IMG/VR virus record: IMGVR_UViG_3300006790_000091
Span: 1-27,851 of that record
From: a virus
Direction: 5' to 3' (one strand)
Length of the DNA: 27,851 nt
Shown here: in pieces, positions 8,701 through 27,851 of the stretch
Numbering within the stretch: the stretch's first letter is position 1
How the letters are laid out: each line of letters opens with the position of its first letter
Notes under the pieces: model-generated
What the model was told of the DNA's origin: nothing
Databases searched by the model: none
What the model saw: the letters and a program-made list of their open reading frames with translations, nothing else
Program-made: the position numbers and the translations under genes

Positions 8701-9344
8701 CTATGATTGGCCCTGCTTATGATTTATTTCAAGCTGGTCAAGAAACACCTGCTAATGATTTTGGTAGAGTAAACCCTAAAACAATTGATTTATCTAAACA
8801 AAGAACTGAACTAGAAAAACAAGCTGGTTTATCTAGAGCTATTGCTAGAGAGAATGCTAGAAACGCACCTTCTGCAGGTGGAGCTATGACTAATAGAGTA
8901 ATTTCTAATGCTATAATTAATTCTCAATTAGGTTCTGGCTTATCACAAAGTTATCAAACTGAAGAGGCTCAAAATGTTCAGATACTTAACCAAGCTGAAT
9001 TTGCTAATCATCAAACTAGAATACAAGAGAAATTAGCAGACCAACAAGATTTAGCATTGAGAAAATCAACTATCTCACAGGCTATGCATAACATTGGTAT
9101 GAATCTTCAAGGTTATACTAGAGATTTAGAATCAGCTAGAGTAGGAAATCTTAATAATAAACTTTGGTTTGATGCTGTTAAAAATGGTAAGTATTTTGAT
9201 ATGAAATGGGACGAAAGTACCCAGAGCATGATTATGATTCCTAAAGTCAAAGCTGATGGTTCTAAAAATGATGACCAAAGTGAAGTACACATTAATACTC
9301 AAGGAAAAACTTCTGTAGTTACCAAAGATAATACTTCACAATAA
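5796..9344 (+). CDS. Large glycine-motif virion (cargo-type) protein
   Basis: This 1182-aa protein follows the muzzle-type gene, the position of cargo/structural proteins in crAss-like phages. The N-terminus is Lys-rich, then a Gly/Ala-rich mildly hydrophobic region (about 40-90) and a Gly/Ala/Asn-rich helical region to about 220. Short glycine motifs recur: Phe-Ala-Tyr-Gly-Gly-Asn at 250-255 and identically at 570-575, Phe-Gln-Tyr-Gly-Gly at 716-720, Ala-Asp-Gly-Gly-Arg at 819-823 and Phe-Gln-Leu-Gly-Gly at 847-851. Residues 569-715 form a recognisable module of Bacteroidota phage virion proteins: a Gly-Pro-x-His-Gly-Gln-Gly-Gly-Ile turn, an Ala-Glu-Val-Glu-Gly-Gln-Glu strand, a Tyr-Met-Phe-Ser-Ala segment, then a charged helix. 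Residues 1003-1125 are mostly helical. No enzyme motif is seen. The start is ATGGCTAAG. A role as packaged or ejected protein is inferred from position and composition. Confidence 0.68.
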   Translation: MAKKKSKKPQYARGGKLGSKIGDSFKFAGDTLLSTIGLSDVIGDENYRNQGFADASRVGEQIGKGVGQVAGNLILPGMGGNIVKTGQNLLGNVDGEDQERARIEQMRANKDSYGKYSDSITDMNKAVNPLVAGTQAATGLANMAAGNFAQTGNVLGDLSGLKNSFGQGILGQAAPATGDMMGAAIGALKGQPNNQINYEFATDMQKINNPAAGTMGIQAALNQSQGDIMTNYQQPISTVQNQVPFNFNAFAYGGNMKTKYQTGGPISLSPEITEGSPEHQEYLRRLSNFQSQDPTEFQKYQDIYGADNITPTGGSVVDFFTNEWSDRKKVWDTTSELNRRGMANPYDYKNVDEYYSTQYGTGEAGFTLPRGAAMYSAPHQDISNEVDAKIGKHMYRGVGDKDHDYFWQYTDPSGDYDVTPAEENMQVYPEDTRLDATTGIKEFQSGNYKTRNLGDIYVQSPGGETVDGMDFLSPENYNPNAFEFVPNQDFKPNRDWIQPKYMGEGKDRVNIFEHPSVPTTSNSNVNPLPTTPMQTIPNAPSMSPSDFKGRHIYGALDQGTIRDISNKTSFAYGGNVEEMPDGGKFVQYDGPTHGQGGIDIDQNGMPTVNPNAQAEVEGQETMHDNGIEKYMFSARLIPQSELDKKNDKKKHNVKTYADLSKEIHKRYPEADKDPIQLKSRNMELERLKAEQEADRSMLNGIEQGNGQQQSQLPDMFQYGGTYGGRDNENIGTYKQGYSKVFDRQDVAYDNTHREDTMPSESWILEADDRQHGWDLYPIQNNAYMPEKFGFNKNLMMKYYKGELNAKPRFGADGKPIKKADGGRLEGNVTRDRTGSSTFRDSTGKVHFQLGGELTKKQPVQEDPFILDQQSLQFMQPIHEDPFVLGGLPQDLLALSGALGTTTDDITKFDKEKKDQVSVLQHKAQSENWNPYKDVARDLINMSGENTPNTADSGSQLPQERINPMGLAASMIGPAYDLFQAGQETPANDFGRVNPKTIDLSKQRTELEKQAGLSRAIARENARNAPSAGGAMTNRVISNAIINSQLGSGLSQSYQTEEAQNVQILNQAEFANHQTRIQEKLADQQDLALRKSTISQAMHNIGMNLQGYTRDLESARVGNLNNKLWFDAVKNGKYFDMKWDESTQSMIMIPKVKADGSKNDDQSEVHINTQGKTSVVTKDNTSQ

Positions 9345-9349
9345 TTTTA

Positions 9350-9357
9350 TATATTTG
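9350..9357 (+). promoter_or_regulatory. Candidate Bacteroidota -7 promoter element, TATATTTG (second copy)
   Basis: This TATATTTG sits in the 28-nt gap between the two cargo-type genes, with 15 nt between it and the ATG at 9373. That is almost the same spacing as the copy at 5772-5779. No TTTG -33 element is evident upstream, where the sequence is the end of the preceding coding region. A purine-rich stretch (GAGAAAGAG) directly abuts the start codon, too close to be a normal Shine-Dalgarno sequence. The recurrence and the matched spacing are the evidence; the motif alone is weak in such AT-rich DNA. Confidence 0.4.
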
Positions 9358-9372
9358 TAATAAGAGAAAGAG

Positions 9373-12084: not shown

Positions 12085-12086
12085 CT

Positions 12087-15000
12087 ATGGCTAAGAAACC
12101 AGAGTATAAACCACTTATTAAAGATGATTTATCTGATTTAAAAAGTAATGTAGCAAATAAACCATTTGACTATAAAGGTACTAAGGGAACTAAAAATTAT
12201 TCAATTAGTAGATCTAAACATCTTGGCGGTCAGACTATTGAAGATTTTAGAAAAAGTACTGGTACTGGGGTATCTATGCTTACTCCAGATAATTTATCTA
12301 ACAGATCTTATTTTGAAGAAGTAATTAATGATAAGGAGACACTTAGAAATGATATCAAAGCTTATGAACAATCTACTTGGGACAAAGTTGGTAACGGTAT
12401 AATGAAATTTGCTGGTAGAGCAGGTACTTCTATTATCGGTTCTACTATTGGTACCTTCTATGGTTTATATGCATGGGCGAGAGATGGTGAATTTAAATCA
12501 TTTTATGATAATGAATTTCAACATGGACTTGATGGTATTAACGATTATATTAGAGAAGAATTTCCACATTACTATACTTCAGACCCAGATGATTGGGAGA
12601 TTGGTAACTTCTGGTTTGATAAAGTATTTGATGGTTTGGGTTTCGCTACAGGTGCTGTAGCATCTGGTATGTTAGGTGGCGGGGCAGTTAATGTTTTAGG
12701 TAAAGTAGGTAAAGCTATGAAGCTAGGTAAACTAGCTAAATACAAAGCTGTTAAGAATCTTAAAAATCTACAGGCATCTGGTGCCTCTACTGCAGAAATT
12801 GGTATAGCTAGAGCTAATATTGATAAGGTAGGGGCATCTATGAGTAGACTATCTAAAGTGCCACATGATATTGCTGCATTAACAACTGGTGCTGTATATG
12901 AATCTGGTTTTGAAGGTAGAATGGTATTTAAAGATACTAAAGAAAGATTAATAGAACAATACAAAGCAGAAACAGGTTACGCCCCTACTGGTAAAGAACT
13001 AGAAGAAATTAATAAGATTGCTGGTGAATCAGCTAACGGTGTATTTGCTGCTAACATGGCTTTAGTTGGAGGTTCTACATATGCTCAATTTGGTAAGCAT
13101 TTAGGTTTAAGTTTTCCACAAATGAAGAACTTAATTAAACCTAGAATTGCTAAAGAAATAGTAGAGGAAGGTTCTAAAAAATATGTTAAGAAAGGTAGTA
13201 GTATAGTCCGAGGCACAGCAACTATTGCTAAAAAACCTTTTGTGGAATCTCAAGAAGAAATGCTTCAATCAGTATTTTCTAAAACTGGTGAAGAGTATGC
13301 AATGGCTAAATACAATAACAACGGTAAAGCTAGTGTCAGTGACTTAGCTAAAGCAGCAATTACTTCTGCTAAAAAAGTATATACATCTAAAGAAGGTTGG
13401 GAAGAAGGTTTGATTGGTGCTATCATTGGTTCTATTGGTGTTTATAGTGGAGCTAAGTCTGAAACAGGGGGTAGAGAATTACCGTTACCTGCTGTTATAA
13501 AATCTATTGGTGAAGCTAGAAATGAAGAACAACTTAGAAATATGATTGTAGATGGAATCAATAATAATGAGATTGCTTCTACTCTTACTTCTACTGCTGA
13601 ATACATGATTAGAGATGGTAAACTAGAAAGAACTAAAGACCTTGCTTTAGTTGAGGGAGACGAACATATCTACAATAATGCTAAAGATGAACAATTATTT
13701 AGCTACTTTGATTCTAGAATGAAAGCAGGTATGTTCGCATCTGTTCAAGAAGACATTCAAGGTTTAAGAAGTATGCCTGTAGAAAAGTACAAAGAACTTG
13801 TAGGTATTCCAGAAGAAGTAGAATTTACTGAAACAGATAAAAGTCAGTTAATTAATTCCTATGAAAGAAAGATTAAAGAGTATAAAGAAGCTCACGACTT
13901 TATAGAAAAGAATTATAAAGAATATGATGAAGACGCTAAAACTGCTTTAAGATATAATCTAGCTACACTTAAAAGAATTGAAGCTAGACAAAGAAATATT
14001 AGTGAACAAATAGATAAATTAACTGAAGGTTCTTTTGCTCAAGAAATTTCAACTCTTAGAAAAGCTGGTGCTAGACCAGGTGCAGATGAGTTCTTTGGAG
14101 AAGTAGATTCTAAAATCAAAACTATCCATAAAGAAAATCTAACTAATTTATATGATGATTATTTTAAACTAGAAGATAGAGCTAACGATATTTTAAAAGA
14201 ATATGATAAAACTGTTAGAGATCCTCAAGGTTTAGAAGAGAAGATTGAAAAAGCTGTTACTGAATTAGAGAAAGAGCTTAACAAAGATTCTGATGAAATT
14301 GAAAAGACTAATAGAAAAGAGAACCAAGTTAAACAGGGTATCGAAGATAACGAAACCAAGAAACAACAAAATAAATTAAAAGAAGCTGAACAAGCAGTTA
14401 TAGACCAAACTGAAGATGAAGCTTTTGAAGCTGCTTACAGAGATTTAGAAGAAAGAGAATCTAATGAGAAAATCATTAACGATAAGATTACTAATCTAAA
14501 AGACAGACAAAGTAAATTATTAAATGAACAAAGTGCATTAGACAATACTTTAAATTTTTTAGATGAAATACTTCAAACCAATTCAGAGTATTCTTCAAAA
14601 GAAGTAGAAGGGCTGTTGAAACAAATCAATACTCTTAAAGGTCTGTTATCTAATAACTTAGCTAAGACTAAAAGAGGTAAAGCTACAATTGCTACTATAG
14701 AAGAACTTGAAAATCAGATTAGAAATGAGTTCTCTTTAGGTCATGATATACTAAATAGAGTTAGAGAATTAAGAGAAGAGTCAATTCAGCTTGAAGCAAT
14801 TCTTAAAGATTTGAATAATCAAATTAGTTATTATCAAAATTTGATAGCTAATTCTAACATGACTACTCTTAGTCAAAACGAACTTAAAAAACAACTTAGA
14901 AAAGTTGAGTCTAAAGCTTCTACAGTTAGAAAGTTAATTGATGCTATTAAGAATGCTATATCTAAATCTTTAGCTTACTTAAATGAGTATATTGGTATAT

Positions 15001-18000
15001 GGAATAAAACATATAACAAACTAGAAAACTTTAAAGATAAGAACAACTTTAAACCTTTATCTCAATCTGAGCTTAAAGAAATCATAGAGAAAGATGATGT
15101 TCAATCTCAAGAATGGTTAAATAAATATACTGAACTAGCTCAAAGATATGCTGGACTCGAAGAACAAGTACTAGCACAAATGACTGACATTGAATTCTTA
15201 GAAGAAGTTAAAGCCAAAGAAGGTGATAGACTTAACGAACTTATTGAAGCTCTTAGAAAATATGATAACCAAGCTAGATACTTAAAAGAATTAATTGACA
15301 GTTATGATGCTGCAATTAAAGAATCACCTATATCTACACCACAAGGTACACCACAAGGACCAGCTCCTGTTAATACTAAGGGTACTCAGCAACATACAGA
15401 AGCTAGAGTCGGTAATGCAGAGGCTACAAAAACTCCAGCTAAAACTGCTGGTTTAGACCAAGAAACTATTAATGGTCTTGTAGCTGCTATTAATGATGCT
15501 AAAGACTTAACTGCACTTGCTAAAGTAGCTAACTTTATTAATGAACTTAAACAAGAAGAATCTCTTGATGAAATGCCAGATGCTATTAAAGAAGCATACC
15601 AGGCTAAAAGAGATGAACTTAAAAATAAACTTGTTCCTAAAACTAAAACTGAAGAAGACAGTGAGGTTGATGAACCCCATGAAATGAATGAAGCCCCTAG
15701 AGATTTTTCTGACGAAGAAGCTAAACAAGCTGCAGAGAAACTCAAAGATGCTAACCAAGGTGAACAAGATGGTACTGATAATAACGATCCTATTATTAGA
15801 GATAATGGTATAGTGTATCTTAGAAAAAGATTAGTTGATGCATGGAATGCTATTGCTGTTAGAACTAGAAACTTTGTTGAGAATGTAGCTAAAGGTGAAA
15901 TTAATGAATCAGAAGATGAGCTTTCTTCTCTTACTACTTTAGATATACTATCTTCTAAATTTATTAATAGAGGAGATAAAGTTCAAATTAGTTTACATTA
16001 TGGTGAATTATTTGACCCACAAGGTAATCCTTTAGAAATTAAAAATGAAGAAGGGCCAAATCAGATAATGAAGATAGAAAAAGATGGTCAACTAATTGGC
16101 TATCTTCATGACCTATCTTATATACGTCCAGACAGAGTAGTAGAAGCTACTGAACAATACCCAGATAACCTTGCTAGAAATAGAGAAGAACTAGAACAAA
16201 CTAGAAAAGATCTTTATAAAGCACTATCTACAAATAACAATACTCCTATAACTGCAGTTGTTGGGGGTAAAAGTGCTGGTACTATTAATATTAAAACTAA
16301 CCAGAAGTACGATACTCCACTATCTCAAGCTATTGAAAAAGATGATAGACCTAAAATATTGGTGGTTAAATCTGGAGGTCTTTACTTAGGTACCTCTAAT
16401 GTTGAAGACATGGATTTAGGAGAACAAATACATACTCCTTCTGCTGAATTTTTAGAAGAGTATGCAGGTATGACTTTAGTTGCATTACCTACAGCTAACG
16501 GTGGTTACTCTACTGTATTTGCTAGAAATCCTAAATTAAAAGACGTCAAGATTAATGATGAATCAGTTACTGACATCATTAAAGAAGTAGTCACTTCATA
16601 TCTTACTTCAGATTATGCTACTCTAGAACAATACGGTTTAGCAGATGCTGAAGCTAAAGAAATGTATGCAGAAGATATTGAACAGTATCTTAAGAACTTC
16701 ATGCATATGTCTTCAATTGTTTTTGTAGATGGTACTACAGACCATAATAATCACTTCTTTTACATTGGTAAAAATGATTATGGTCCAGTAATTCAATTCG
16801 TACATGAAGGTAGTCAGATTAATCTACACAAGAAATCTGATCTAAGTGTATTAGAAGCTAAATTAGATGGGGCACTTTTAAATACTAACTTAAATATGTT
16901 AAACCCTAACAGAGTTAATGAAGTTAGATTAAAAGATGGTACCAAAGTTAATTACGATACTTTTATCAAAGATAACTTAATGGTTAACTTCTTTGGTGAA
17001 GAAGTACATATGAAACATAATAACAAGAAAGAAATGGTATACGTTTCTAACCCTGTTATTACAATTAACAAACCTAATTTCATTGAAGAAAAAGCACCAG
17101 TAATTGAAGAGGGGAGTGAGTTCTTCTTTGAAGATGACAGTCCATTAGCTGATATAGAAAGAAGAAGACAAGAAGCTTTAGAAAACATTACACAATTTGA
17201 AGATGTTGATGGTAATGGTTTATTTAAAGATGGTTCTTGGGGTACTATTTTTGCTGAAGAAGATAGAATGACTATTACTGAAGCTATTGAATTAGGATTA
17301 GCTGAAACTGACACTAGAGAAGAATTAGTAGATAATATAAATGCTAAATATGATGCTGAAATAGCTGCTCTAGGTAAAGAAACTACTCCAGTTGAAGAAG
17401 TAGAAATAGCAGAAGCTAAAGAAAATATTTCTGAAGATTCCCCAGAAGCTACAGGACAACCATTAAGTAAAGAAGAAACTACCTTACCTCCTAAAAAAGA
17501 TAATCCTTTAGATAAACTAGAAGATTCTTTTTCTCCTAAAAGAGAGTATACTAATAGTGATTTAAGAAAAGGCCTTAATACTATTGTAGATGATAAAGGT
17601 GTTATCAATGCTTCTAAACATAACAGAGACATTACCAACACCATTACTGCAGTAATGGTAAGCTTACTTGAGAATAAACCAGGTATTACTGTAGGAGAAA
17701 TCATGTCTGTCATTGATGAAGCTTTTAATGATAAGTTTGATATATATAATTACTTCGGCTCTCAAACTTCTATTGATGAAGATCTAGCTACTGAAAGAAA
17801 TGCTTTATTAACAGTAGAAGATAATGCTGAAATGGCTAGACGTTACAAATTAGTTCTAGACAACATGCCTATATTTAAACAGTTAGCATTAGCTAAACTT
17901 AAAACTTATGGGTATTCAGTTAATGCTAACACAGGTTCTTTAGAATATGTTCAAGAAGATACTACTGATATTGAAGAAAAAATAGAAGCTGAATCAGAAG

Positions 18001-21000
18001 AAATGATTAGTGGAGGTGAAGCTGAAAATGCTAGAACTTCTTATGATGAGGGGGAAGTGCTTAGAAAAGATCCAGTTGAATCAATGTCAGCTAGAGTTAG
18101 ACATTTATTATCTACTATCAAAACTGGTGAGAAGAACTTCTTAAATAAACCTCAATACCATGATATGTATCATGTATATTATAGTATACTTGATATATTA
18201 GCTAATACCAATAATGAAACTCTTGATAAGAGTATTATTGAATTAGAAAGAAATATTAAATCTAAGCCATACCTACAAGAAGTAGTTAACATGCTTAGAA
18301 GTGAGAAGATTGAAATGCATGATAAACTAGAATTCCACTCTGTTATCAAAAAAGCATTACTTGTTCACGAAACTGTACTAGTAGAACCTAAAGAACAGGG
18401 TACTGATATTAAAGTAATTAACACTAATAGAAATACTTTAGCTCAACAAATAGCTGAAGATTGGGTAGTTAATCAAGAAGGTGTTTCTATGTGGAAAGAC
18501 CAAAATGGTATTAGCGTTCTTAATAAAGACTATATTAACACTACTCTTCAAGATAAATGGGTAGCTGTTATTGAAGCTGGTAGAAAAGATAAAGAATCTA
18601 GTGAGAAAACTAGATACGCTGTTAAAGCTTTACAGTCTTATCTTAAAGCTGTAGGTATTTACATGTCTGAAGAAGCTCTAATGTATTTAGAAGACAACCC
18701 AAGTTATCTAACAGGTAATCCTAATACACAGTTTGCTTCATTATTTAGTACAAAAAAGAGTGGTGTATTTAGTGAAATCAATAATAGATTAAAAGAAGCT
18801 ACTAAAGATACAGAAGAACATCCACTAGAAACAGAAGGGTACATTAAAAAGTTAGCTACTTTACAGGCAGAGTTCTCTGAAGATGTATCCACACACTCTT
18901 TCATTAACTCAGAGAAAAATAATATCTTCTCGTTTATCAATAGCTCATGGATGATTGAAAGATTATCTAGACTAAAACATAAAAGAAAAGGTATTAGAAA
19001 GAAGATGATTAACAGATTATTAGCTCTACCTTTTAGTAAACACTCTAACTGGTTAAAAGAGCTTGGTCCTAATGCTAACGAAAAGTTTAGAGATCATTTT
19101 AACATTACATTATTAGATACTCTTAAACAAGCTAAAGAAGATGGAGCTTCTTTCTCATCTCTATCTGAAAGAGAACAATTGGTTGCTCAGTTGAACTTGT
19201 TTGTAAATAATGAACAGGGTACTAAAGATCAGAAGATTAGTAAATTTATTGTAGCAAAAGCTGATAAACATCTATTACATGTTGTTACTGCTTTAAGACA
19301 TATGATGGATTCATCTAATGCTGAAATTAACAAAGGTGAATTTGGTACTAATGATAAGAATGCCTTATTAGATTTAGTTAAATCTGAATATTCTAGAATA
19401 CTAGATGCCCAAGAAAAAAGAAAGAATGGTATTGACTTTACGGATTTAGCATATAAGACTGATTCTGAAGGTAACATAACTCATGGATACAACCCTTTCC
19501 AGTTCTATTTTTTTGAGGGGCTTAACGATAAATCTAACAAACAAGTAGCTAAACTATATCACAACGGTGAACTTAAAACTTGGGAAGAACTTACTTCTTC
19601 TGGTTTAATTGATACTGTACTTTGGGAAGTAGTTAAAACTCAATTTAATAATGAAGCTGCTAAACTTAGAAAAGAGTTAATTAGTAAAAATATTATTATA
19701 CCTAAAGACCCAGATGTAGAAGACTCTCAAGATATGATTAGATCTGGTCTTAAATATAATAAGAGTGCTAACTATTTTGTAAGAGACTACTTATTAAATT
19801 ACATGATTGCTAATGTCAATTATGCACAAATCTTTCAAGGTGACCCTGCGGTAGGTTTTAAAAAATCTATTGATGGTACTTTTGCTAATTTGTTTAAACG
19901 TTTAGCTAAAGATATTGCTCCAGCTACTAGAGGAGGTAAACTTAAATTATCTGCTCTTAGAAAGTTAACAGGTGGTACTAACTATAACAAATATAACCAG
20001 ATTGTATTAAGAGATTCGTATGGCAACTCTCTTAACATACAAGAATTAATGGCAAAACAAATACCTGGTTATGAAGGTATGGACACAAGTGTTGATGCTC
20101 AAGAGGTTACTACTCTTGAAGAACACTTAAACATTATGTACCATTATGGTAAAATTAAAACTAAGCAATATTTAAATCTTTTAAAGAAAGCTCAAAAAGG
20201 CCAAGAATTAACGCAAGAAGAATTAGATATTGTTCTACAACCAATGAAACCAGTACACTCTGGTAACTATATTATGAATGAGTATGGTGTAGATATGCCT
20301 ATCTATATTAAATCATCTTCATTCCCACTAGTACCACAACTACTTGGTGAGAATAGTCCATGGGCACAGTTAGAAAAAACCATGCGTAAGAAAAATGTTC
20401 AACGTGCTGTATTCCAATCAGGTATAAAGCTAGGAGCATTTAAAATTATTGATGGTTGGAATAAGATGACTAACCCAAAAACTGAAGAGTTAATGGGTAC
20501 TACTTCTGAAGATGGTAAATTTACTCCATTCACTAACGGTACTTTTAATATTAAAGAAATAGAAGCACAAATAGATAACGGTGCTTTCATGACTTTAAAT
20601 AGAGATAACTTTGGTATTCAGCAAGATATGCCGTATGATCCTTTCAAAAGCAAAATTCTAGAAGGTTCTCAGTTAGTTAAACTTATCATGAATGGTCTTG
20701 ATACTTCTACACCATATGGTGCTAAAGTAAGAGATAGATTTAATGAATTACATAATGAGTTAACTGATATAGGTTTTGAAAACTTCTTAGATAAAATTGG
20801 TTTTGAAGAAGTAGGTGGTAAAATCTCTCCTAAAAATGGTTCATTAGAAAAGTTCAAGAATGTAATTATTCAAGAACTAATTACCAGAGGAGACTACAAT
20901 CAAAATGATTACCTAGCTTTAGAACTAAACAAAGAAGGTACAGATTTCTTAACACCACTTTGGGCTAATCCTAAATCTGCTAAGTTTGAAGCAGTACTTA

Positions 21001-24000
21001 ATTCACTGATTAGTAAGAATGTACTTAGACAAAAGATGCCTGGTAAGTCTTACATTCTAGCTACTGAAGAAGGTTGGACACATAAAGATGTTACTATTGA
21101 AAAGGTACCTAAATCTAAACTTAAAGGTAGTGCTTATAAAGCTGGTGAAGGTTTAAAACCTCAAAGAACTGGTTATAAAAACGAATCTACTGGTCAAGTT
21201 ATGGAAGTAGATAATTTCAATAAACTTGTCGAAGAAGGTACTATTAAAGCTACTGATTTTGTTGAAGTGGTACTACCAGCTCAAATATTAATTGCTAAAC
21301 CTAAGAAAAAAGTTATAATAGAAGATGCTGATGGTAATAGAATCTCTATGGCTACATATAACAGATTAAGCGAGATTGAAAAATCTGACTATACTGTTAA
21401 TACATTAAGATTTGAAAACCCTCAAATGGTTGGTTATCGTATTCCAACACAGGATTTGAACTCAATGTCTGCTATGGAAGTAGTTGGTTATCTACCAGAT
21501 TACATGGGAGATATTATAATTGCTCCAAAAGATTTCACTGTTCAGATGGGATCTGACTTTGACATTGATAAATTATATGTTCATAGATGGAATGAATCTG
21601 ATAGTGGTAAACCTATAGATGAGACTACTGCTAAAAGAGCTTGGGACTATCAGAAAAAGAGTTCTGATAATTCTGAAATGGCTGCTAAACTTGAAGCTGC
21701 AGGTTTAGAGATTCCAGAAGATACTGAAAGCTTTGAAGAATTTAAAAAGAAATTCCAAAAAGAAGTTATTCAAAATAAAATAATGGATGAGTATTGGAAA
21801 ATTCTTACTGATCCTTCTAACTTATCTGATATTCTTAAACCATTAGACTTTGGTAATCTACCAGAGGTAGTAAAAACAATTAACAGAGAACAAGAATCTG
21901 AAGAACGGGCACATATATTATCACCTACTAGACAAATAGAAAACTATCAAAATGGTAATGCTGGTAAATTTGGTGTGGCTGCTACTTCACTTGTATCTAC
22001 CTTTAATGCAACTGCTCAATCTATTACTGAAGAATTAGAGTTAATGGAAGAAGTTGCTATATATGAGAAAGGTGTGTATAAAGGTAGTAAAATTGTACCT
22101 AGATTCTTCAACTTTAATATTGATGGAGAACCTAAACCATTATCTAAAATTAATAATACCAAAGAAACTGCTAATGGTAAAACCACTAAAGCTGCAGTTA
22201 TCTCTGCGTATCAGTCTGCTGCTGTAGATAATATTAATGAGCTACTTATTAACACGCTAAACTATAATAAGCATACACATGATGCATTTACTGCATTGGC
22301 TATGTTAGGTTTAGATGAAGACTACATTGGTTATTTATTAGCTCAACCTATCATTAAAAGATTTGTTAAGCTAAATGAAAATGCCAAAGATATGTTTGCA
22401 GTTCAAGGTGAATCAGCTTACACTGAACTATTTGATGAGTTAAGTGATATGATTGGTAATCCAGAGGTTGAAAGAGCTATCTTTACTGGGGGGTGGAATG
22501 ATGCCTACTCTACTGAAGATTTAAAAAACTCTTTAAATAGTAAAGATCCAATTTATAGTTTAAAAATCTTAGTTAAGTTCTATAAACTATCTAATGCTGG
22601 TAGAGATATTAATAGTTTAATTAGAGCTACTCAACCAGCTACTTCTGGTATTGGTAAGAACAGAATCAATTCTGAACTTAAAGAACTTAGTGCAAACAGT
22701 GCTATTACTTCTAAAGCTATTAGAAATGCTGACGCTATCTTTGGTACTGTAGAAGTAAAAGAATCTGAACCAGGTAGGAACCAAGATTTACAAGTTAATG
22801 TAGAAGGTACTACTATTATTGGTAAGGGTGTTCAAGTAATGAAGAAAGCTAATGATATATATGGCAATTACTTCCATATCAATAAGTTAGGTACTAAGTT
22901 AGCTAACATGATTAAGTTCCTTAAGAATGATACTGAACTTAACTTTACTGAAAAACAATACGAAGATTTTATAAGTTTTGCTAAATCTTATTTATTCTCT
23001 GCTGAATTACAAATGTATGGGAATGAAGAAGCTGTTGCTTATAGAGAAAGACTACTATTTGGTAACGAATCTTTAGCTCACAGATGGAATAAATTTAAAA
23101 AAGATATTCCTAAACACTGGTTAGCTAAAAGAATTAGAGTTAGAATTACATTAGGTAGTAAAAAACCTAACACAATCCGTTACAATGCTGCTCAGTCTGA
23201 AAGAAGTGATGACCTTGAAAACGTTATTACATTAATTGAAATGTTAGAAAGTAATGACCCTACTCAAATAGAGTTAGCTGAAGATACTATTGCGTATACT
23301 TATTTAAGAGGAGGTAAACAAGATGCTCTATCACTACTTAAATTTATACCTAATAGATACTTACAAGTAACTAAAATGGGAGCAGATATTACTGAGAAGT
23401 TTAAAGAAACTTATACTGGAGAAGATCTTTCAGCTTCACTATTAGAACAATATCTACAACATAAACCATTTTATGCCTATAACCCTACTACTCAATTTAT
23501 TAATGGAGATTTCCTTAAACGATTAGAAGTAGAAGTTAGACCTAATGGTAAGGCCACTATTCAGTATATGGGTAGAACTTATAAAATGTTTGATACTGAA
23601 GCAGAGGCTGAATTAACTTTAGCTAGACTTCAACAAATAGAGAAAGGTACTATAGAAATTCAAAAATCAGAATTAGAATCTGAATACATACCTAAATATA
23701 CATATGGTAAGTATAAAGGTAAAATGACCTTGTATAAACTAGATAATAATTCAGCTAAGAGCGATGCTGTAGTTTATAGACCTATGGACAGACTTGGTTC
23801 TTCTGAGTTTATGGAAACTCAATATCGTCAACTTAATGCTACTAGTTCAATTCTAGAAAATCAAGTTGATCCAGAAGATACTGCAGAAACACAAGAGCCT
23901 ACAAAAGTAGATCTTCCACCATCATCTAACAGACAAAATGTTAGAGATAACGTGCAAAACAATGTTAAAGATACTAGTTCTTTAGCTACTAAGTTTAAAT

Positions 24001-26189
24001 TGCCCCAAGGTAGTCAATCTGCTACAAGAGTTGATTCAGTTATAGATGATATAATTGATTCTATGGCAAACCCTCAACTTAAAAATGTACTTAAATTTTT
24101 AAAACCATTACTAGGAACCACTACAATTAAAGTAGGTAGACCTAGTAGAGATGATGTTGATGGTGAGTATAGTTCAACATATGATGTTATTATTATAGAT
24201 AATAAGATAACTTCTGAAGAAACTTTTGCTAGAGTATTAGTACATGAAATGGTACATGCTGTATTAGATAAAGCTATTGTTTCACCTACTGCAGCTCAAC
24301 AAAAACATGTTGATGCTCTTAAAAACTTATTCAAAGAATTTAAAAGTCAGTATAAAGGTAACATACCTAATGCTAAATTAAACCTTAAAGAGTTTGTAGC
24401 TGAAATCATGACTGATGCTGATTTTCAAGTAGAGCTTGATAACATGAGGTTCGGTAAGGACAAAACATTCTTACAGAGATTCTTAGAAATAGTTAGTGAA
24501 ATTTTAAATTCAGCTAAGTCTTTATTAGCTGCCGATGTTAATACTGTAGGTGTAACAGCTCAAGCTATGTCTGAAATTGTCAGACTTACTAATGCTGGTA
24601 ATCAAACTACTGTTAGTACTGATACTGCAGCTATAATCAAAGCTTCTGAAAATGTAGAAATTTCTGAAAGTATAGAAACAGAAGAAACAGTTACCCTAGA
24701 TGACATACCTACCGAAGATGATGTTGTAGTTAATGAAGACCATATGATATTTAAATCAAGAGACACTAAGTTAGACTACACTGAAGATCAAAAAATAGCT
24801 TTAGGTAAGTTAGGTAGATTCATTGATTCTAAAGATAGCGGTAACTTCTTCTTATTAGCTGGATATGCTGGTACTGGTAAAACTACATTAGTAGAAAACA
24901 TCTTAAAGTATGGTGAAACTACTAAAAATGATGTCAGAATTACTGCTACTACCAATAATGCTGTAGATGTACTTAAAAACAAGTTTAAAGGAAGTAAGAA
25001 AAAATTCTCTACTATACATAAACTTATTGGTCTAGTACCTTCAGAAGTTGAGGGGAAAGAAGATCAAATCTATGACAAGATTCCTAACGGTTCTATAGTG
25101 GTTATTGATGAAGCTTCTATGTTAGATAAGAAACTATTAGATTTAGTAGTAATGCAAGCTAAAGTTGGTAATGCTAAAGTTATATTTGTAGGAGATTCTT
25201 TCCAACTAGAACCTGTTGGAGAAGACCCTAAATTATTTAGCGAATTTGATTTTGGAGATAATAAATACGAATTATCTGAAGTTAAAAGACAAGATGGTGA
25301 CATCTTAAAAGTAGCTACACATATTAGAACTGTTAAGAGAAACGAACTCTTAGATATCAATTCTAAAGAGTTTGCTGTAGTTGAACAGGCTCAAATCAAA
25401 GAAGAGATAGATAACGACATTGCAAATAATAATGACTTTGTTGTTCTAGTTACTACTAATAAAGATAAGATTAAAAAGAACAACTACATTAGAGCTAAGA
25501 AGTATGGTAAAGAGTTAGCTGGAGAACATAAGATTCTTAAAGGAGAAAAGTTAATGTTTATCTCTACCAATGTTTCTTCTAATGGTAGTCTTTATACCTT
25601 ACCTAATAATGTAGAAATTGAAAAAGTAATACCTTTTACATATAAAGAGAAATCTTATGAAGGTCATTTAGTATCTATACCAGGTACTAAAAAGAAAATC
25701 TTTGTTGTACCAAATTACGAAGGTCCAAGTTTATACGGTAGCCAGTTAACTAAAATAGAAGAACTTGCCCCTATTATGCAAAAGAAGACAAGCAATTTTG
25801 GTACTGAATACTATAAGTGGAATAAAGAGATTGACATTGCTAACTATGGTTATGCTAGTACTATTCATAAATCTCAAGGTAATGAATGGGACAACGTATA
25901 TATAACTGCTAATTATATGGCACAAGGTTGGGATGCAGCTAGAATGATTTATACTGCTGTTACTAGAGGTAAAAATAAAGTTAGAGTACAAAATACTTCA
26001 GTTATCAATATAAAAGAAGACTTAAGTATGTATGAAGAGAATTTACCAGATCCAACTCCAGAAATGTTATCTCCTTCACCATTTATTAGTAAATCTCCGA
26101 AGAGGGGTATTAAACCAGCTAAAAATGGTATCTTTACAGAAATGAGTAACGAAGATTTAGAAGAATTTAAAAAACAATGTAATGGCTAA
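12087..26189 (+). CDS. Giant virion RNA polymerase fused to a zincin peptidase and an SF1 helicase
   Basis: This is a single open frame of 4700 codons, starting ATGGCTAAG 2 nt after the previous stop. Parts in order: glycine-rich hydrophobic segments (109-131, 183-210, 439-455) in an otherwise helical N-terminal 500 residues; charged coiled coil (about 560-1075); Thr-Pro-Gln-Gly linker (1084-1091); uncharacterised acidic modules to about 2100; single-chain RNA polymerase core (about 2150-3720); zincin-like metallopeptidase (about 3990-4190); acidic linker; SF1 helicase (about 4225-4652). In crAss-like phages the two-barrel polymerase is packaged in the virion and transcribes early genes after ejection; phi14:2 gp66 is the characterised example. 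The frame has no internal stop or visible frameshift. At 4700 aa it is far longer than gp66 (roughly 2200 aa, from memory), mainly because of the N- and C-terminal additions. The polymerase call is strong; the joint packaging of helicase and peptidase is inferred from the fusion. Confidence 0.9.
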   Translation: MAKKPEYKPLIKDDLSDLKSNVANKPFDYKGTKGTKNYSISRSKHLGGQTIEDFRKSTGTGVSMLTPDNLSNRSYFEEVINDKETLRNDIKAYEQSTWDKVGNGIMKFAGRAGTSIIGSTIGTFYGLYAWARDGEFKSFYDNEFQHGLDGINDYIREEFPHYYTSDPDDWEIGNFWFDKVFDGLGFATGAVASGMLGGGAVNVLGKVGKAMKLGKLAKYKAVKNLKNLQASGASTAEIGIARANIDKVGASMSRLSKVPHDIAALTTGAVYESGFEGRMVFKDTKERLIEQYKAETGYAPTGKELEEINKIAGESANGVFAANMALVGGSTYAQFGKHLGLSFPQMKNLIKPRIAKEIVEEGSKKYVKKGSSIVRGTATIAKKPFVESQEEMLQSVFSKTGEEYAMAKYNNNGKASVSDLAKAAITSAKKVYTSKEGWEEGLIGAIIGSIGVYSGAKSETGGRELPLPAVIKSIGEARNEEQLRNMIVDGINNNEIASTLTSTAEYMIRDGKLERTKDLALVEGDEHIYNNAKDEQLFSYFDSRMKAGMFASVQEDIQGLRSMPVEKYKELVGIPEEVEFTETDKSQLINSYERKIKEYKEAHDFIEKNYKEYDEDAKTALRYNLATLKRIEARQRNISEQIDKLTEGSFAQEISTLRKAGARPGADEFFGEVDSKIKTIHKENLTNLYDDYFKLEDRANDILKEYDKTVRDPQGLEEKIEKAVTELEKELNKDSDEIEKTNRKENQVKQGIEDNETKKQQNKLKEAEQAVIDQTEDEAFEAAYRDLEERESNEKIINDKITNLKDRQSKLLNEQSALDNTLNFLDEILQTNSEYSSKEVEGLLKQINTLKGLLSNNLAKTKRGKATIATIEELENQIRNEFSLGHDILNRVRELREESIQLEAILKDLNNQISYYQNLIANSNMTTLSQNELKKQLRKVESKASTVRKLIDAIKNAISKSLAYLNEYIGIWNKTYNKLENFKDKNNFKPLSQSELKEIIEKDDVQSQEWLNKYTELAQRYAGLEEQVLAQMTDIEFLEEVKAKEGDRLNELIEALRKYDNQARYLKELIDSYDAAIKESPISTPQGTPQGPAPVNTKGTQQHTEARVGNAEATKTPAKTAGLDQETINGLVAAINDAKDLTALAKVANFINELKQEESLDEMPDAIKEAYQAKRDELKNKLVPKTKTEEDSEVDEPHEMNEAPRDFSDEEAKQAAEKLKDANQGEQDGTDNNDPIIRDNGIVYLRKRLVDAWNAIAVRTRNFVENVAKGEINESEDELSSLTTLDILSSKFINRGDKVQISLHYGELFDPQGNPLEIKNEEGPNQIMKIEKDGQLIGYLHDLSYIRPDRVVEATEQYPDNLARNREELEQTRKDLYKALSTNNNTPITAVVGGKSAGTINIKTNQKYDTPLSQAIEKDDRPKILVVKSGGLYLGTSNVEDMDLGEQIHTPSAEFLEEYAGMTLVALPTANGGYSTVFARNPKLKDVKINDESVTDIIKEVVTSYLTSDYATLEQYGLADAEAKEMYAEDIEQYLKNFMHMSSIVFVDGTTDHNNHFFYIGKNDYGPVIQFVHEGSQINLHKKSDLSVLEAKLDGALLNTNLNMLNPNRVNEVRLKDGTKVNYDTFIKDNLMVNFFGEEVHMKHNNKKEMVYVSNPVITINKPNFIEEKAPVIEEGSEFFFEDDSPLADIERRRQEALENITQFEDVDGNGLFKDGSWGTIFAEEDRMTITEAIELGLAETDTREELVDNINAKYDAEIAALGKETTPVEEVEIAEAKENISEDSPEATGQPLSKEETTLPPKKDNPLDKLEDSFSPKREYTNSDLRKGLNTIVDDKGVINASKHNRDITNTITAVMVSLLENKPGITVGEIMSVIDEAFNDKFDIYNYFGSQTSIDEDLATERNALLTVEDNAEMARRYKLVLDNMPIFKQLALAKLKTYGYSVNANTGSLEYVQEDTTDIEEKIEAESEEMISGGEAENARTSYDEGEVLRKDPVESMSARVRHLLSTIKTGEKNFLNKPQYHDMYHVYYSILDILANTNNETLDKSIIELERNIKSKPYLQEVVNMLRSEKIEMHDKLEFHSVIKKALLVHETVLVEPKEQGTDIKVINTNRNTLAQQIAEDWVVNQEGVSMWKDQNGISVLNKDYINTTLQDKWVAVIEAGRKDKESSEKTRYAVKALQSYLKAVGIYMSEEALMYLEDNPSYLTGNPNTQFASLFSTKKSGVFSEINNRLKEATKDTEEHPLETEGYIKKLATLQAEFSEDVSTHSFINSEKNNIFSFINSSWMIERLSRLKHKRKGIRKKMINRLLALPFSKHSNWLKELGPNANEKFRDHFNITLLDTLKQAKEDGASFSSLSEREQLVAQLNLFVNNEQGTKDQKISKFIVAKADKHLLHVVTALRHMMDSSNAEINKGEFGTNDKNALLDLVKSEYSRILDAQEKRKNGIDFTDLAYKTDSEGNITHGYNPFQFYFFEGLNDKSNKQVAKLYHNGELKTWEELTSSGLIDTVLWEVVKTQFNNEAAKLRKELISKNIIIPKDPDVEDSQDMIRSGLKYNKSANYFVRDYLLNYMIANVNYAQIFQGDPAVGFKKSIDGTFANLFKRLAKDIAPATRGGKLKLSALRKLTGGTNYNKYNQIVLRDSYGNSLNIQELMAKQIPGYEGMDTSVDAQEVTTLEEHLNIMYHYGKIKTKQYLNLLKKAQKGQELTQEELDIVLQPMKPVHSGNYIMNEYGVDMPIYIKSSSFPLVPQLLGENSPWAQLEKTMRKKNVQRAVFQSGIKLGAFKIIDGWNKMTNPKTEELMGTTSEDGKFTPFTNGTFNIKEIEAQIDNGAFMTLNRDNFGIQQDMPYDPFKSKILEGSQLVKLIMNGLDTSTPYGAKVRDRFNELHNELTDIGFENFLDKIGFEEVGGKISPKNGSLEKFKNVIIQELITRGDYNQNDYLALELNKEGTDFLTPLWANPKSAKFEAVLNSLISKNVLRQKMPGKSYILATEEGWTHKDVTIEKVPKSKLKGSAYKAGEGLKPQRTGYKNESTGQVMEVDNFNKLVEEGTIKATDFVEVVLPAQILIAKPKKKVIIEDADGNRISMATYNRLSEIEKSDYTVNTLRFENPQMVGYRIPTQDLNSMSAMEVVGYLPDYMGDIIIAPKDFTVQMGSDFDIDKLYVHRWNESDSGKPIDETTAKRAWDYQKKSSDNSEMAAKLEAAGLEIPEDTESFEEFKKKFQKEVIQNKIMDEYWKILTDPSNLSDILKPLDFGNLPEVVKTINREQESEERAHILSPTRQIENYQNGNAGKFGVAATSLVSTFNATAQSITEELELMEEVAIYEKGVYKGSKIVPRFFNFNIDGEPKPLSKINNTKETANGKTTKAAVISAYQSAAVDNINELLINTLNYNKHTHDAFTALAMLGLDEDYIGYLLAQPIIKRFVKLNENAKDMFAVQGESAYTELFDELSDMIGNPEVERAIFTGGWNDAYSTEDLKNSLNSKDPIYSLKILVKFYKLSNAGRDINSLIRATQPATSGIGKNRINSELKELSANSAITSKAIRNADAIFGTVEVKESEPGRNQDLQVNVEGTTIIGKGVQVMKKANDIYGNYFHINKLGTKLANMIKFLKNDTELNFTEKQYEDFISFAKSYLFSAELQMYGNEEAVAYRERLLFGNESLAHRWNKFKKDIPKHWLAKRIRVRITLGSKKPNTIRYNAAQSERSDDLENVITLIEMLESNDPTQIELAEDTIAYTYLRGGKQDALSLLKFIPNRYLQVTKMGADITEKFKETYTGEDLSASLLEQYLQHKPFYAYNPTTQFINGDFLKRLEVEVRPNGKATIQYMGRTYKMFDTEAEAELTLARLQQIEKGTIEIQKSELESEYIPKYTYGKYKGKMTLYKLDNNSAKSDAVVYRPMDRLGSSEFMETQYRQLNATSSILENQVDPEDTAETQEPTKVDLPPSSNRQNVRDNVQNNVKDTSSLATKFKLPQGSQSATRVDSVIDDIIDSMANPQLKNVLKFLKPLLGTTTIKVGRPSRDDVDGEYSSTYDVIIIDNKITSEETFARVLVHEMVHAVLDKAIVSPTAAQQKHVDALKNLFKEFKSQYKGNIPNAKLNLKEFVAEIMTDADFQVELDNMRFGKDKTFLQRFLEIVSEILNSAKSLLAADVNTVGVTAQAMSEIVRLTNAGNQTTVSTDTAAIIKASENVEISESIETEETVTLDDIPTEDDVVVNEDHMIFKSRDTKLDYTEDQKIALGKLGRFIDSKDSGNFFLLAGYAGTGKTTLVENILKYGETTKNDVRITATTNNAVDVLKNKFKGSKKKFSTIHKLIGLVPSEVEGKEDQIYDKIPNGSIVVIDEASMLDKKLLDLVVMQAKVGNAKVIFVGDSFQLEPVGEDPKLFSEFDFGDNKYELSEVKRQDGDILKVATHIRTVKRNELLDINSKEFAVVEQAQIKEEIDNDIANNNDFVVLVTTNKDKIKKNNYIRAKKYGKELAGEHKILKGEKLMFISTNVSSNGSLYTLPNNVEIEKVIPFTYKEKSYEGHLVSIPGTKKKIFVVPNYEGPSLYGSQLTKIEELAPIMQKKTSNFGTEYYKWNKEIDIANYGYASTIHKSQGNEWDNVYITANYMAQGWDAARMIYTAVTRGKNKVRVQNTSVINIKEDLSMYEENLPDPTPEMLSPSPFISKSPKRGIKPAKNGIFTEMSNEDLEEFKKQCNG
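12411..13455 (+). other. N-terminal glycine-rich hydrophobic segments of the giant protein
   Basis: Three stretches in the first 460 residues are rich in Gly, Ala, Ile and Val with small-residue spacing. They are about 109-131 (ending in Phe-Tyr-Gly-Leu-Tyr-Ala-Trp), 183-205 (Gly-Leu-Gly-Phe-Ala-Thr-Gly-Ala-Val, then four more glycines) and 439-455 (Gly-Leu-Ile-Gly-Ala-Ile-Ile-Gly-Ser-Ile-Gly-Val). The spacing resembles glycine-zipper or membrane-active helices. Basic clusters follow the second stretch. Such segments are unexpected in a cytoplasmic polymerase. They would fit a domain that contacts or crosses the cell envelope during ejection, but could also be buried helices of a soluble fold. 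Confidence 0.45.
13764..15311 (+). other. Long coiled-coil region of the giant protein
   Basis: Residues about 560-1075 are almost entirely Glu, Lys, Asp, Asn, Gln, Leu and Ile with heptad-like hydrophobic spacing and almost no Pro or Gly. This predicts long helices, probably coiled coil. It separates the N-terminal hydrophobic region from the enzymatic parts and ends at a Pro/Gln/Gly linker. A spacer or oligomerisation role is likely. The boundaries are by eye. Confidence 0.6.
15336..15359 (+). repeat. Two-unit 12-bp tandem repeat encoding Thr-Pro-Gln-Gly
   Basis: The 12-bp unit ACACCACAAGGT is followed at once by ACACCACAAGGA, encoding Thr-Pro-Gln-Gly twice (residues 1084-1091), then Pro-Ala-Pro. 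This flexible linker marks the end of the coiled coil and the start of the next module in the giant protein. The near-identical codons suggest a recent duplication. Confidence 0.8.
18550..23250 (+). other. Two-barrel RNA polymerase core of the giant protein
   Basis: This stretch carries both catalytic double-psi barrels of a crAss-like virion RNA polymerase in one chain. The beta-like barrel is marked by Tyr-Ile-Lys-Ser-Ser-Ser-Phe-Pro-Leu (K2742, 20310-20312) and Ser-Gly-Ile-Lys-Leu-Gly (K2781, 20427-20429), the likely counterparts of the two conserved lysines. The beta'-like barrel has Arg-Ile-Pro-Thr-Gln at 3118-3122 and Met-Gly-Ser-Asp-Phe-Asp-Ile-Asp at 3154-3161. D3157, D3159 and D3161 should bind the catalytic metal. 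Downstream, Asn-Gly-Asn-Ala-Gly-Lys-Phe-Gly-Val (3289-3297) precedes a long helix that may act as the bridge helix. All key residues are present, so activity is expected. The outer limits are approximate. Confidence 0.85.
21555..21569 (+). other. Catalytic DFDID motif of the RNA polymerase
   Basis: These 15 bases encode Asp-Phe-Asp-Ile-Asp (3157-3161), the metal-binding signature of crAss-like virion RNA polymerases. It corresponds to the DxDxD/DxDGD motif of two-barrel RNA polymerases generally. Gly-Ser just before it and Lys-Leu-Tyr just after it agree with the family pattern as I remember it. Confidence 0.88.
24054..24656 (+). other. Zincin-like metallopeptidase domain of the giant protein
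   Basis: Residues about 3990-4190 contain Val-Leu-Val-His-Glu-Met-Val-His-Ala, an HExxH zinc site at 4053-4057 (24243-24257) on a predicted helix. It is preceded by an edge strand (Asp-Val-Ile-Ile-Ile-Asp), as in zincin folds. About 45 residues on, Lys-Glu-Phe-Val-Ala-Glu offers E4102 or E4106 as the third, gluzincin-type ligand. The domain lies directly between polymerase and helicase. It could cut the giant polypeptide to separate its enzymes, cut another virion or host protein, or be structural; the sequence does not decide. Zincin-like domains have been described in crAss-like giant proteins, as I recall. Confidence 0.75.
24759..26042 (+). other. SF1 (Dda/RecD-type) helicase domain of the giant protein
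   Basis: The C-terminal 430 or so residues hold a full set of superfamily 1B helicase motifs. These are the Q-like Tyr-Thr-Glu-Asp-Gln-Lys; Walker A Gly-Tyr-Ala-Gly-Thr-Gly-Lys-Thr (4259-4266); Thr-Ala-Thr-Thr-Asn-Asn-Ala (Ia) and Ser-Thr-Ile-His-Lys-Leu-Ile-Gly (Ib). Next come Asp-Glu-Ala-Ser (II, 4341-4344), Gly-Asp-Ser-Phe-Gln-Leu-Glu-Pro-Val (III, 4369-4377) and the Val-Lys-Arg-Gln arginine R4401 (IV). The last two are Thr-Ile-His-Lys-Ser-Gln-Gly-Asn-Glu-Trp (V, 4592-4601) and Tyr-Thr-Ala-Val-Thr-Arg-Gly (VI, R4627). A beta-rich insert between IV and V (about 4485-4550) resembles the SH3-like pin domain of Dda/RecD2. By family it should move 5'-to-3' on single-stranded DNA using ATP. A tail of about 48 residues follows. 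Confidence 0.88.
26182..26189 (+). promoter_or_regulatory. 8-nt stop/start overlap coupling the two giant genes
   Basis: The start of the second giant (ATG at 26182-26184) lies inside the last codons of the first, whose TAA is at 26187-26189; the shared bases are ATGGCTAA. There is no Shine-Dalgarno sequence upstream, so initiation probably depends on ribosomes finishing the first giant (termination-reinitiation). The overlap supports this ATG over later ones, together with the family-like Met-Ala-Lys-Ile-Cys-Pro-Asn-Lys-Asn opening. Confidence 0.65.
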
Positions 26190-27851
26190 AATTTGTCCAA
26201 ATAAAAATACTAAACTATACAAACGATTATCTAGACAACTTTCACAAGATAATGTATACAGAGTCTGGGGTGCAATTACCACTCCAGAATTTGATGCTTG
26301 GTATGGTAATAGAAGAAGAGATAATGACGATATGCCTATCATTGATAACTTCTTTGAAATACAAAACGACAAACTTGTTAAAGGTACACTATTAGAGAAT
26401 GCTATTAAATTAGAATCTAAAGAAGAGGTTGAAAGGTTATTTAGTAGTTTAGAAGCTAGAGGTATCTCTAAACAACATGGTTCATATTATGTATCCAAAA
26501 ATAACAGGGAAGCGGGAGTTAAATTTTTAAAAAAGCTTGTAAAACACTACCCTAATCTTATTGTTATTAAAAAGTCTAGACCAACTACCCAAGAACTTGG
26601 TGTTGTAGATCAATCTATCCCAGAAACTTATAGAATAATAATTAATGAAGCTGCTTTAGGTACTAATGTAGATTCTTATTCTCCTAAAAGAGCTAGAAAA
26701 ATAGGTAACTCTGTTGCTAGAAAGTCTAGAAAGTCTAGAAAAGTAGGAGCCAATATTAAAAAAGATACTACTGCTGGACCTCAATTTATTATTAATCGTA
26801 TCAAAGAATACGGTGAAAGTATTAATAATAAACTACAAGATGAACTTAAAAAAGCTAGAGAAACCAAAGATTATTCTAAAGTTGAGAAACTTAGAAAACA
26901 ATATGATGGAGTTCAAAGAGCTATCGTAGAATTACAAGATAAAAACTTTAAAGAATCTATTATTAGAGTAGCAAACAATAGTCTAAAATATGTAGAGAAT
27001 ATTGTAAATAAAGAAAATGTTACTGCTGAAGATTTAGTAGAGGCACATAGAATTATTGCTCTATATGAAAACTTAGGTTCTAGAGATCCGAGAAAGAATA
27101 TGAGTATTCTTACTGAAAACGACTTCAAAAAAACTGAAGTAGTTAAAACAGATCCAGAAACAGGTAAACAAACTATTGTTAAAGATTTACTTGATACTAC
27201 CAAAAAGATTATTGATATATCTAAAGAAGCCCAAATGCTCCATGAAAGTTTAGATGTATTAACTAGAAAACTCATCACTCAAGAATATAATGAAAGATTT
27301 GATTCTGAAGTAGATGAGGAAACATTATTTGAAAACATTACTGACATCAATGCATTCTCTCAAAAAATGAGAGGGGGAGCTAGTGTTAACAATGCTATGT
27401 TAACATTACTTACTACAATATCAATGGATGCTACTGCTAAATCTACCCAAGAAACTTTAAAAGATAAAGCTAGACTTAACGAAGTTATTAATAAAGCCAA
27501 AGGTTCTAAACTATATGGTAGGCTGCAAGATAAACTTTTTACTGATTTCTTTTGGCAAAAAAATAAAAAAGGTGAAAAAACTGGTGGTAGATTGGATGAG
27601 TGGAGCCATGCTTATTATCAACTAAGAGGTAAACTACTTGGTACTATCTATGGTAATAAGAACGCTGGTATGGTTAAAAAATCTAAAAAAGAATTTTATA
27701 AAAACCATACATTTGTAGGTTACTTTCTTAATGAAGACGGTACTGTAAATGAACAAGTTAAACAAGAGCAAATAGATAAACTTACTGAAGAGTTTGGTGC
27801 TGTTAAAGCTTTGAAAGAAGTTACAGATGCTGAAACAGTTTTCAAAGATTA
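26182..27851 (+). CDS. Second giant virion protein, 5' part (partial)
   Basis: The frame starting at 26182 is open to the window edge: 556 complete codons and no stop. The N-terminus (Ala-Lys-Ile-Cys-Pro-Asn-Lys-Asn, then Val-Tyr-Arg-Val-Trp) matches an opening I associate with large virion proteins next to the polymerase gene in crAss-like phages, which may reach several thousand residues. Residues about 165-200 are strongly basic, with an Arg-Lys-Ser repeat at 180-187. From about 210 to 260 and again 320-375 the sequence is charged helix, probably coiled coil. Around residues 390-430 there is a less charged helical stretch with small residues. No catalytic motif is visible in this part. A role as packaged and ejected partner of the polymerase is inferred from position. 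Its real length and enzymatic domains lie outside the window. Confidence 0.75.
   Translation, partial: MAKICPNKNTKLYKRLSRQLSQDNVYRVWGAITTPEFDAWYGNRRRDNDDMPIIDNFFEIQNDKLVKGTLLENAIKLESKEEVERLFSSLEARGISKQHGSYYVSKNNREAGVKFLKKLVKHYPNLIVIKKSRPTTQELGVVDQSIPETYRIIINEAALGTNVDSYSPKRARKIGNSVARKSRKSRKVGANIKKDTTAGPQFIINRIKEYGESINNKLQDELKKARETKDYSKVEKLRKQYDGVQRAIVELQDKNFKESIIRVANNSLKYVENIVNKENVTAEDLVEAHRIIALYENLGSRDPRKNMSILTENDFKKTEVVKTDPETGKQTIVKDLLDTTKKIIDISKEAQMLHESLDVLTRKLITQEYNERFDSEVDEETLFENITDINAFSQKMRGGASVNNAMLTLLTTISMDATAKSTQETLKDKARLNEVINKAKGSKLYGRLQDKLFTDFFWQKNKKGEKTGGRLDEWSHAYYQLRGKLLGTIYGNKNAGMVKKSKKEFYKNHTFVGYFLNEDGTVNEQVKQEQIDKLTEEFGAVKALKEVTDAETVFKD
26719..26742 (+). repeat. 9-bp tandem repeat encoding Arg-Lys-Ser in the second giant
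   Basis: The unit AGAAAGTCT occurs twice and is followed by a partial third copy (AGAAAA), giving Arg-Lys-Ser-Arg-Lys-Ser-Arg-Lys at residues 180-187. It lies in a basic patch (Lys/Arg-rich from about 172 to 195) that could bind nucleic acid, for example packaged DNA. The near-perfect nucleotide repeat suggests slippage-type expansion. Confidence 0.75.

Follow-up and report, generated by a model that had tools for sequence, protein, structure and literature searches.

What does a helicase do in the same polypeptide as a virion RNA polymerase, and is such a chain real? The window, a 27,851-base piece of a viral record, contains a single 4700-residue ORF that was predicted from the bare sequence to join a virion RNA polymerase, a metallopeptidase and a complete helicase, of which the union of polymerase and complete helicase was regarded at the time as the most unusual feature of this DNA. 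Here we examine the domains of this chain, its relatives and the role that the helicase might play.

The giant chain and its genomic setting

The features of the window are as follows.

314–1051, + strand, crassvirus tail ring protein 1 (Pfam CrAss_Ring_1, 8e-48)
1054–5748, + strand, crassvirus muzzle protein (Pfam crAss_MUZ, 1e-143; crAss_MUZ_C, 2e-12)
5796–9344, + strand, cargo protein 1 homologue (Pfam crAss_CARG1, 6e-10)
9373–12084, + strand, 903-residue protein in the cargo protein 2 slot (by position only)
12087–26189, + strand, 4700-residue ORF: N-terminal module, virion RNA polymerase (vRNAP), zincin-like domain, SF1B helicase (ORF call; collinear relative L017, 4426 residues)
12234–14336, + strand, N-terminal module, residues ∼50–750, homologous to crAss001 gp47 residues 41–835 (phmmer with sequence chunks)
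17832–23504, + strand, phi14:2-type single-chain virion RNA polymerase, residues ∼1916–3806 (profile A5 against PDB entry 6vr4; ends approximate, from profile positions)
21555–21569, + strand, DFDID catalytic motif, residues 3157–3161 (motif and alignment)
24054–24521, + strand, zincin-like domain, residues ∼3990–4145, with HEMVH at 24243–24257 and E4102 at 24390–24392 (alignment A2, AlphaFold, weak Foldseek matches)
24522–24728, + strand, acidic linker between zincin-like domain and helicase, residues ∼4146–4214 (sequence)
24729–26066, + strand, Dda-type SF1B helicase, residues 4215–4660 (profiles, motifs, fold match)
24861–24884, 25107–25118, 25191–25205 and 25866–25880, + strand, helicase motifs Walker A, DEAS, GDSFQ (GDxxQ) and HKSQG
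26182–27849, + strand, downstream cargo subunit, 556 residues, running off the window end (similarity to relatives)

The giant ORF starts with ATG, has zero internal stops and encodes a 530 kDa product, in agreement with the single uninterrupted frame that had been proposed; the order of polymerase, HEMVH site and SF1 helicase likewise holds. Because genes for ring, muzzle and cargo protein 1 flank the polymerase block, the phage is assigned to the Crassvirales, and the window is read from its gene content as the virion and transcription-cargo region of a crAss-like phage. The 903-residue protein has no Pfam or PHROG match, and the subunit that follows the giant ORF is 38–40% identical to the ORF in the same position in the relatives L267 and L017.

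The 13-row profile A5 matches the phi14:2 virion RNA polymerase (PDB entry 6vr4) over residues 122–2116 with E = 1e-277; even as a single sequence the polymerase region reaches E = 4e-24. Columns D1252, F1253, D1254 and D1256 of the DFDID (DxDxD) motif are invariant in this alignment. The predicted polymerase site and family are thus confirmed by a nearly full-length match, and the window polymerase is placed by sequence in the phi14:2-type crassvirus vRNAP family. Chunks of the N-terminal module match crAss001 gp47 with E values of 1e-16, 5e-14 and 2e-8. The long hydrophobic and coiled-coil N-terminal regions that had been described are only partly recovered: the best 21-residue stretch (residues 184–204) has a Kyte–Doolittle score of 1.36, while residues 701–800 are 64% charged or polar, a composition compatible with a coiled coil.

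The HEMVH zinc site is found at residues 4053–4057. His4053, the catalytic Glu4054, His4057 and the candidate third ligand Glu4102 are invariant among 28 homologues (alignment A2). In the AlphaFold model of this domain (pLDDT 85.7) the HExxH motif and the downstream glutamate lie on modelled helices. A Foldseek search of the PDB with this model returned no significant match, the best zincins having E values of about 0.1; the weak matches (E of about 0.1–0.9) include a minigluzincin, IrrE and N4 gp50. Domain-by-domain profile searches, suggested with the original prediction, support the polymerase and the helicase clearly, whereas the single-sequence match of the zincin-like domain to Pfam Peptidase_M76 stays below the cut-off.

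The helicase region matches AAA_30 (5e-24), UvrD_C_2 (8e-14) and the Dda-like phrog_325 (3e-75), all well over the cut-offs. The UvrD family model PF00580 does not match the record, being the wrong model for this helicase. The window helicase has the Q-motif, Walker A, DEAS, GDxxQ, Arg4401, HKSQG and Arg4627, each conserved in about 19–23 of the 23 homologues, so that the claim of a full set of SF1 motifs stands. T4 Dda is the top fold match (E = 2e-21) of the helicase model (pLDDT 78.8). From its motifs and modelled fold the domain is classified as an SF1B helicase (Dda/RecD2) with a complete set of SF1 motifs. SF1B helicases travel along single strands in the 5′ to 3′ direction, and by analogy the same is expected here. 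A misassigned gene from the replication block is ruled out, as the helicase is in frame with the polymerase and lies beside structural genes. The match from the phage collection that covers the helicase best, MT835724 (L002), is a short ORF (11439–13478, 679 residues).

Shifting gene boundaries and exchange of the helicase

Among relatives the boundaries between these modules move. In phi14:2 the polymerase and the HExxH protein are encoded by separate adjoining genes, in crAss001 an HExxH motif is found near the end of gp47, and a cr110_1 product is labelled 'RNAP associated protein fused to zincin protease'. The joining of polymerase and zincin is common in this lineage, with 57 such ORFs among environmental relatives, and in four helicase-less loci (L021, L025, L026 and L079) the downstream cargo subunit is fused directly after the zincin. 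The close relative L267 (42–46% identical) has no helicase, and its polymerase and zincin are in different frames. Here a 23-nt tandem duplication at 11870–11920, lying between the ORFs for polymerase and zincin, splits the frame on the zincin side, and the split may therefore be recent or an assembly error. Given these shifting boundaries, the giant chain is an ordinary, variable arrangement and the helicase is the added part. Compared with these layouts, gp47-like module, polymerase and zincin are not divided in the window by the gene boundaries seen in other crassviruses, and a Dda-type helicase appears to have been added where the zincin would otherwise adjoin the following cargo subunit.

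Searches with single proteins from the locus recovered almost no relatives, and alignment-based searches were needed. Using the polymerase alone as bait, 80 IMG/VR loci were recruited, of which 18 (a few of them near-copies of one another) encode a Dda-like helicase and the polymerase in a single ORF. The remaining 62 related vRNAPs are without one, and a fused helicase is therefore optional. Over all searches about 26 distinct ORFs combine polymerase and helicase, including those of the RefSeq genomes cr50_1 and cr118_1. The domain assignments and the family of the original prediction thus survive, but the joint presence of polymerase and complete helicase is no peculiarity of the window, and a fusion unique to it is ruled out by this IMG/VR and RefSeq survey. 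The same survey bears on the suspicion, natural for a single metagenomic contig, that a missed stop or a frameshift has artificially joined separate genes. This is contradicted by the many independent in-frame fusions, seen in some 26 separate contigs and RefSeq genomes, and by the collinearity of L017 with the window, and we give it next to no credence.

On a 90-row polymerase tree the fused-helicase trait requires ten changes, at least nine of which are forced by supported branches. The polymerases of the window, L017 and L267 fall in a single clade (support 100/100), yet the window and L017 carry different helicase subfamilies and L267 carries no helicase. In the helicase tree the window falls together with L187, L188 and a further four giant ORFs, and L017 with L085 (46% identity). 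Between the window and L017 the helicases are 25% identical, compared with 44% for the polymerase cores and 49% for the N-terminal modules. AU tests reject joining the window and L017 helicases (p = 3.6e-4), placing all fused helicases in one clade (p = 7e-12) and joining the polymerases of the window, L187 and L188 (p = 3.7e-5), with p values that are only indicative because the clades were chosen post hoc from the trees, which are deep. A single ancestral fusion followed only by losses is rejected by these tests for the sampled helicases and the models used. Stand-alone phage Dda-like helicases interleave with the fused ones in the helicase tree. With the polymerase and helicase trees in conflict in either direction, the helicase is shown to be an exchangeable module, acquired or swapped independently more than once.

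The position of the helicase also varies. In the window and most other cases it comes after the zincin; in L055, L061 and L076 it comes before, and in L028 it has an ORF of its own. In the L238 ORF (7940–19849) the helicase (residues 669–1141) is N-terminal to the polymerase (residues 2618–3502), with two HExxH motifs at residues 232 and 1469. Since the position varies in this way, no fixed geometry relative to the polymerase is required.

Several further variants were observed. The L042 ORF (IMGVR_UViG_3300048839_001287, 7220–16819) carries an RNase H (residues ∼2708–2923, Pfam 1e-10) in the helicase slot after polymerase and zincin, and downstream of it a 'VFVFGSN' stretch similar to one that precedes the cr50_1 helicase. 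L189, L190 and L191 (2673, 3002 and 3210 residues) contain a helicase of the window's subfamily and share a long region after it; the polymerase profile found no RNA polymerase in them. Seven giants of gut Suoliviridae (L009, L012, L013, L015, L097, L099 and L100) contain 38–148 in-frame TAG codons, which is consistent with TAG recoding, and such giants are missed by ORF scans using the standard code.

Possible roles of the helicase

By analogy with its homologues, the chain most probably travels in the virion and is ejected together with the DNA: mass spectrometry detected crAss001 gp47, gp49 and gp50 in virions (PMC10172136), and for phi14:2 the database records gp76, gp77 and gp78 as structural proteins identified by MS/MS. 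The zincin-like domain is the most likely candidate for processing the chain, assuming that it is an active peptidase.

Different helicases have repeatedly been joined to the same partner, which argues for a helicase function linked to the polymerase and suggests joint work early in infection. A precedent for the need of such help is the N4 vRNAP, which is inactive on native DNA and requires supercoiling by host gyrase as well as host SSB, the latter displacing the transcript from RNA:DNA hybrids (PMC4496689, PMC12633501). The C-terminal region of N4 vRNAP may itself bind or unwind DNA, as suggested by the authors of that work (PMC12633501). By analogy, a Dda-type helicase, or an RNase H as in L042, attached to a crassvirus vRNAP would meet N4-like needs. 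Our leading interpretation, to which we give slightly less than an even chance, is that the window encodes a crassvirus vRNAP cargo polyprotein with an added Dda-type helicase that most likely serves its own polymerase in cis on the genome entering the cell. The helicase would enter the host with the polymerase and open the duplex, exposing the template during early transcription, and/or strip the transcript off RNA:DNA hybrids so that the template can be reused. These would be the jobs that host gyrase and SSB perform for the unrelated N4 vRNAP. Two observations speak against this reading: the fused helicase is optional, being absent from 62 of the 80 loci, and its place relative to the polymerase is not constant. 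A bolder version, which we regard as doubtful, is that SF1B helicases were joined to the ejected crassvirus RNA polymerase repeatedly, in independent events, giving a transcription machine free of host gyrase and SSB, with the helicase melting the template or clearing RNA:DNA hybrids in the first minutes of infection.

A serious rival, possible rather than probable, is that the helicase is a co-delivered passenger effector, freed by the zincin, that serves replication start, recombination or counter-defence and not vRNAP transcription. Polyvalent phage proteins join zincins to varied nucleic-acid domains and are proposed to process themselves (PMC5512222), and with polymerase, zincin-like domain and helicase in one phage ORF the window protein fits that description. 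The variable content of the slot after the zincin (helicase, RNase H or other tails), the changing position of the helicase relative to the polymerase and the intermingling with stand-alone phage helicases all agree with a passenger. Within the sampled set, however, helicases are the recurrent choice, and a Pfam/PHROG-type domain search of the window protein identified no defence-related domain.

Two further roles would place the helicase outside transcription of the incoming genome. If the chain were cut during assembly, the helicase part could be left unpackaged and be active in the producing cell, in late replication. This agrees with the acidic linker between zincin and helicase, for which no domain match was found, and with P1 DdrB, which is processed before packaging, the proposed protease being a zincin (PMC5512222); N4 vRNAP, however, also bears a zincin and is packaged uncut (PMC5512222), and we consider such cutting unlikely. 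The helicase could also haul the genome into the cell on exit from the tail. Cargo proteins are thought to exit before the DNA (PMC10172136) and transcription-driven genome uptake has been proposed for N4 (PMC12633501), but Dda and other SF1B helicases travel along single strands while the incoming DNA is a duplex, and most relatives, including L267, manage without a helicase. Such an entry motor, which is the DNA motor of the original prediction, is quite improbable.

Annotation and comparison with known systems

Polymerase and zincin in one ejected chain are already known from N4 and have also been recorded for crassviruses, and public records already contain chains that unite RNA polymerase and an SF1 helicase. 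The literature text searched contains no discussion of the latter combination, and Fig. 3 of PMC7886860 may already draw a helicase domain. What is new is the helicase as an exchangeable module on crassvirus vRNAP. The giants of cr50_1 and cr118_1 bear no annotation beyond 'DNA helicase' and 'exonuclease V', and these RefSeq entries should be corrected to virion RNA polymerase polyproteins. More widely, the labels 'DNA helicase', 'exonuclease V' and 'nuclear pore complex protein-like' hide the polymerase of giant proteins in NC_055868 (gp059), NC_055872 (gp14) and several cr* genomes. The 'DNA helicase' label in cr124_1 is supported neither by the helicase profile nor by a Walker A scan.

The phi14:2 vRNAP matches the window polymerase nearly end to end and also has an adjoining HExxH (gp76 residue 245), but polymerase, gp76 and gp78 are three separate genes and there is no helicase. 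In crAss001, gp47 resembles the N-terminal module of the window and has an HEAFH motif near its end, and gp50 resembles the polymerase; here too the genes (gp47, gp50 and gp49) are separate, zincin and polymerase are in different proteins and a helicase is absent. Suoliviridae cr50_1 gp059 (YP_010110216) and cr118_1 gp14 (YP_010110531) each combine HExxH, polymerase and a C-terminal SF1 helicase in one chain of 4774 and 4946 residues, respectively, but their zincin precedes the polymerase and their helicases are found elsewhere in the tree. T4 Dda and RecD2-type SF1B helicases share fold and motifs with the window helicase, yet are stand-alone enzymes outside any polymerase polypeptide. N4 vRNAP (gp50), like the polyvalent proteins, offers the parallel of a giant ejected chain with polymerase and HExxH domain (PMC12633501, PMC5512222), and gp50 shows the weak fold match to the window zincin. 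In contrast, its polymerase is of the unrelated T7 type and has no helicase, and it is host proteins, gyrase and SSB, that give the ejected enzyme access to a single-stranded template. A polymerase that carries its own helicase, gained and swapped several times, provides a direct test of template access in crassviruses.
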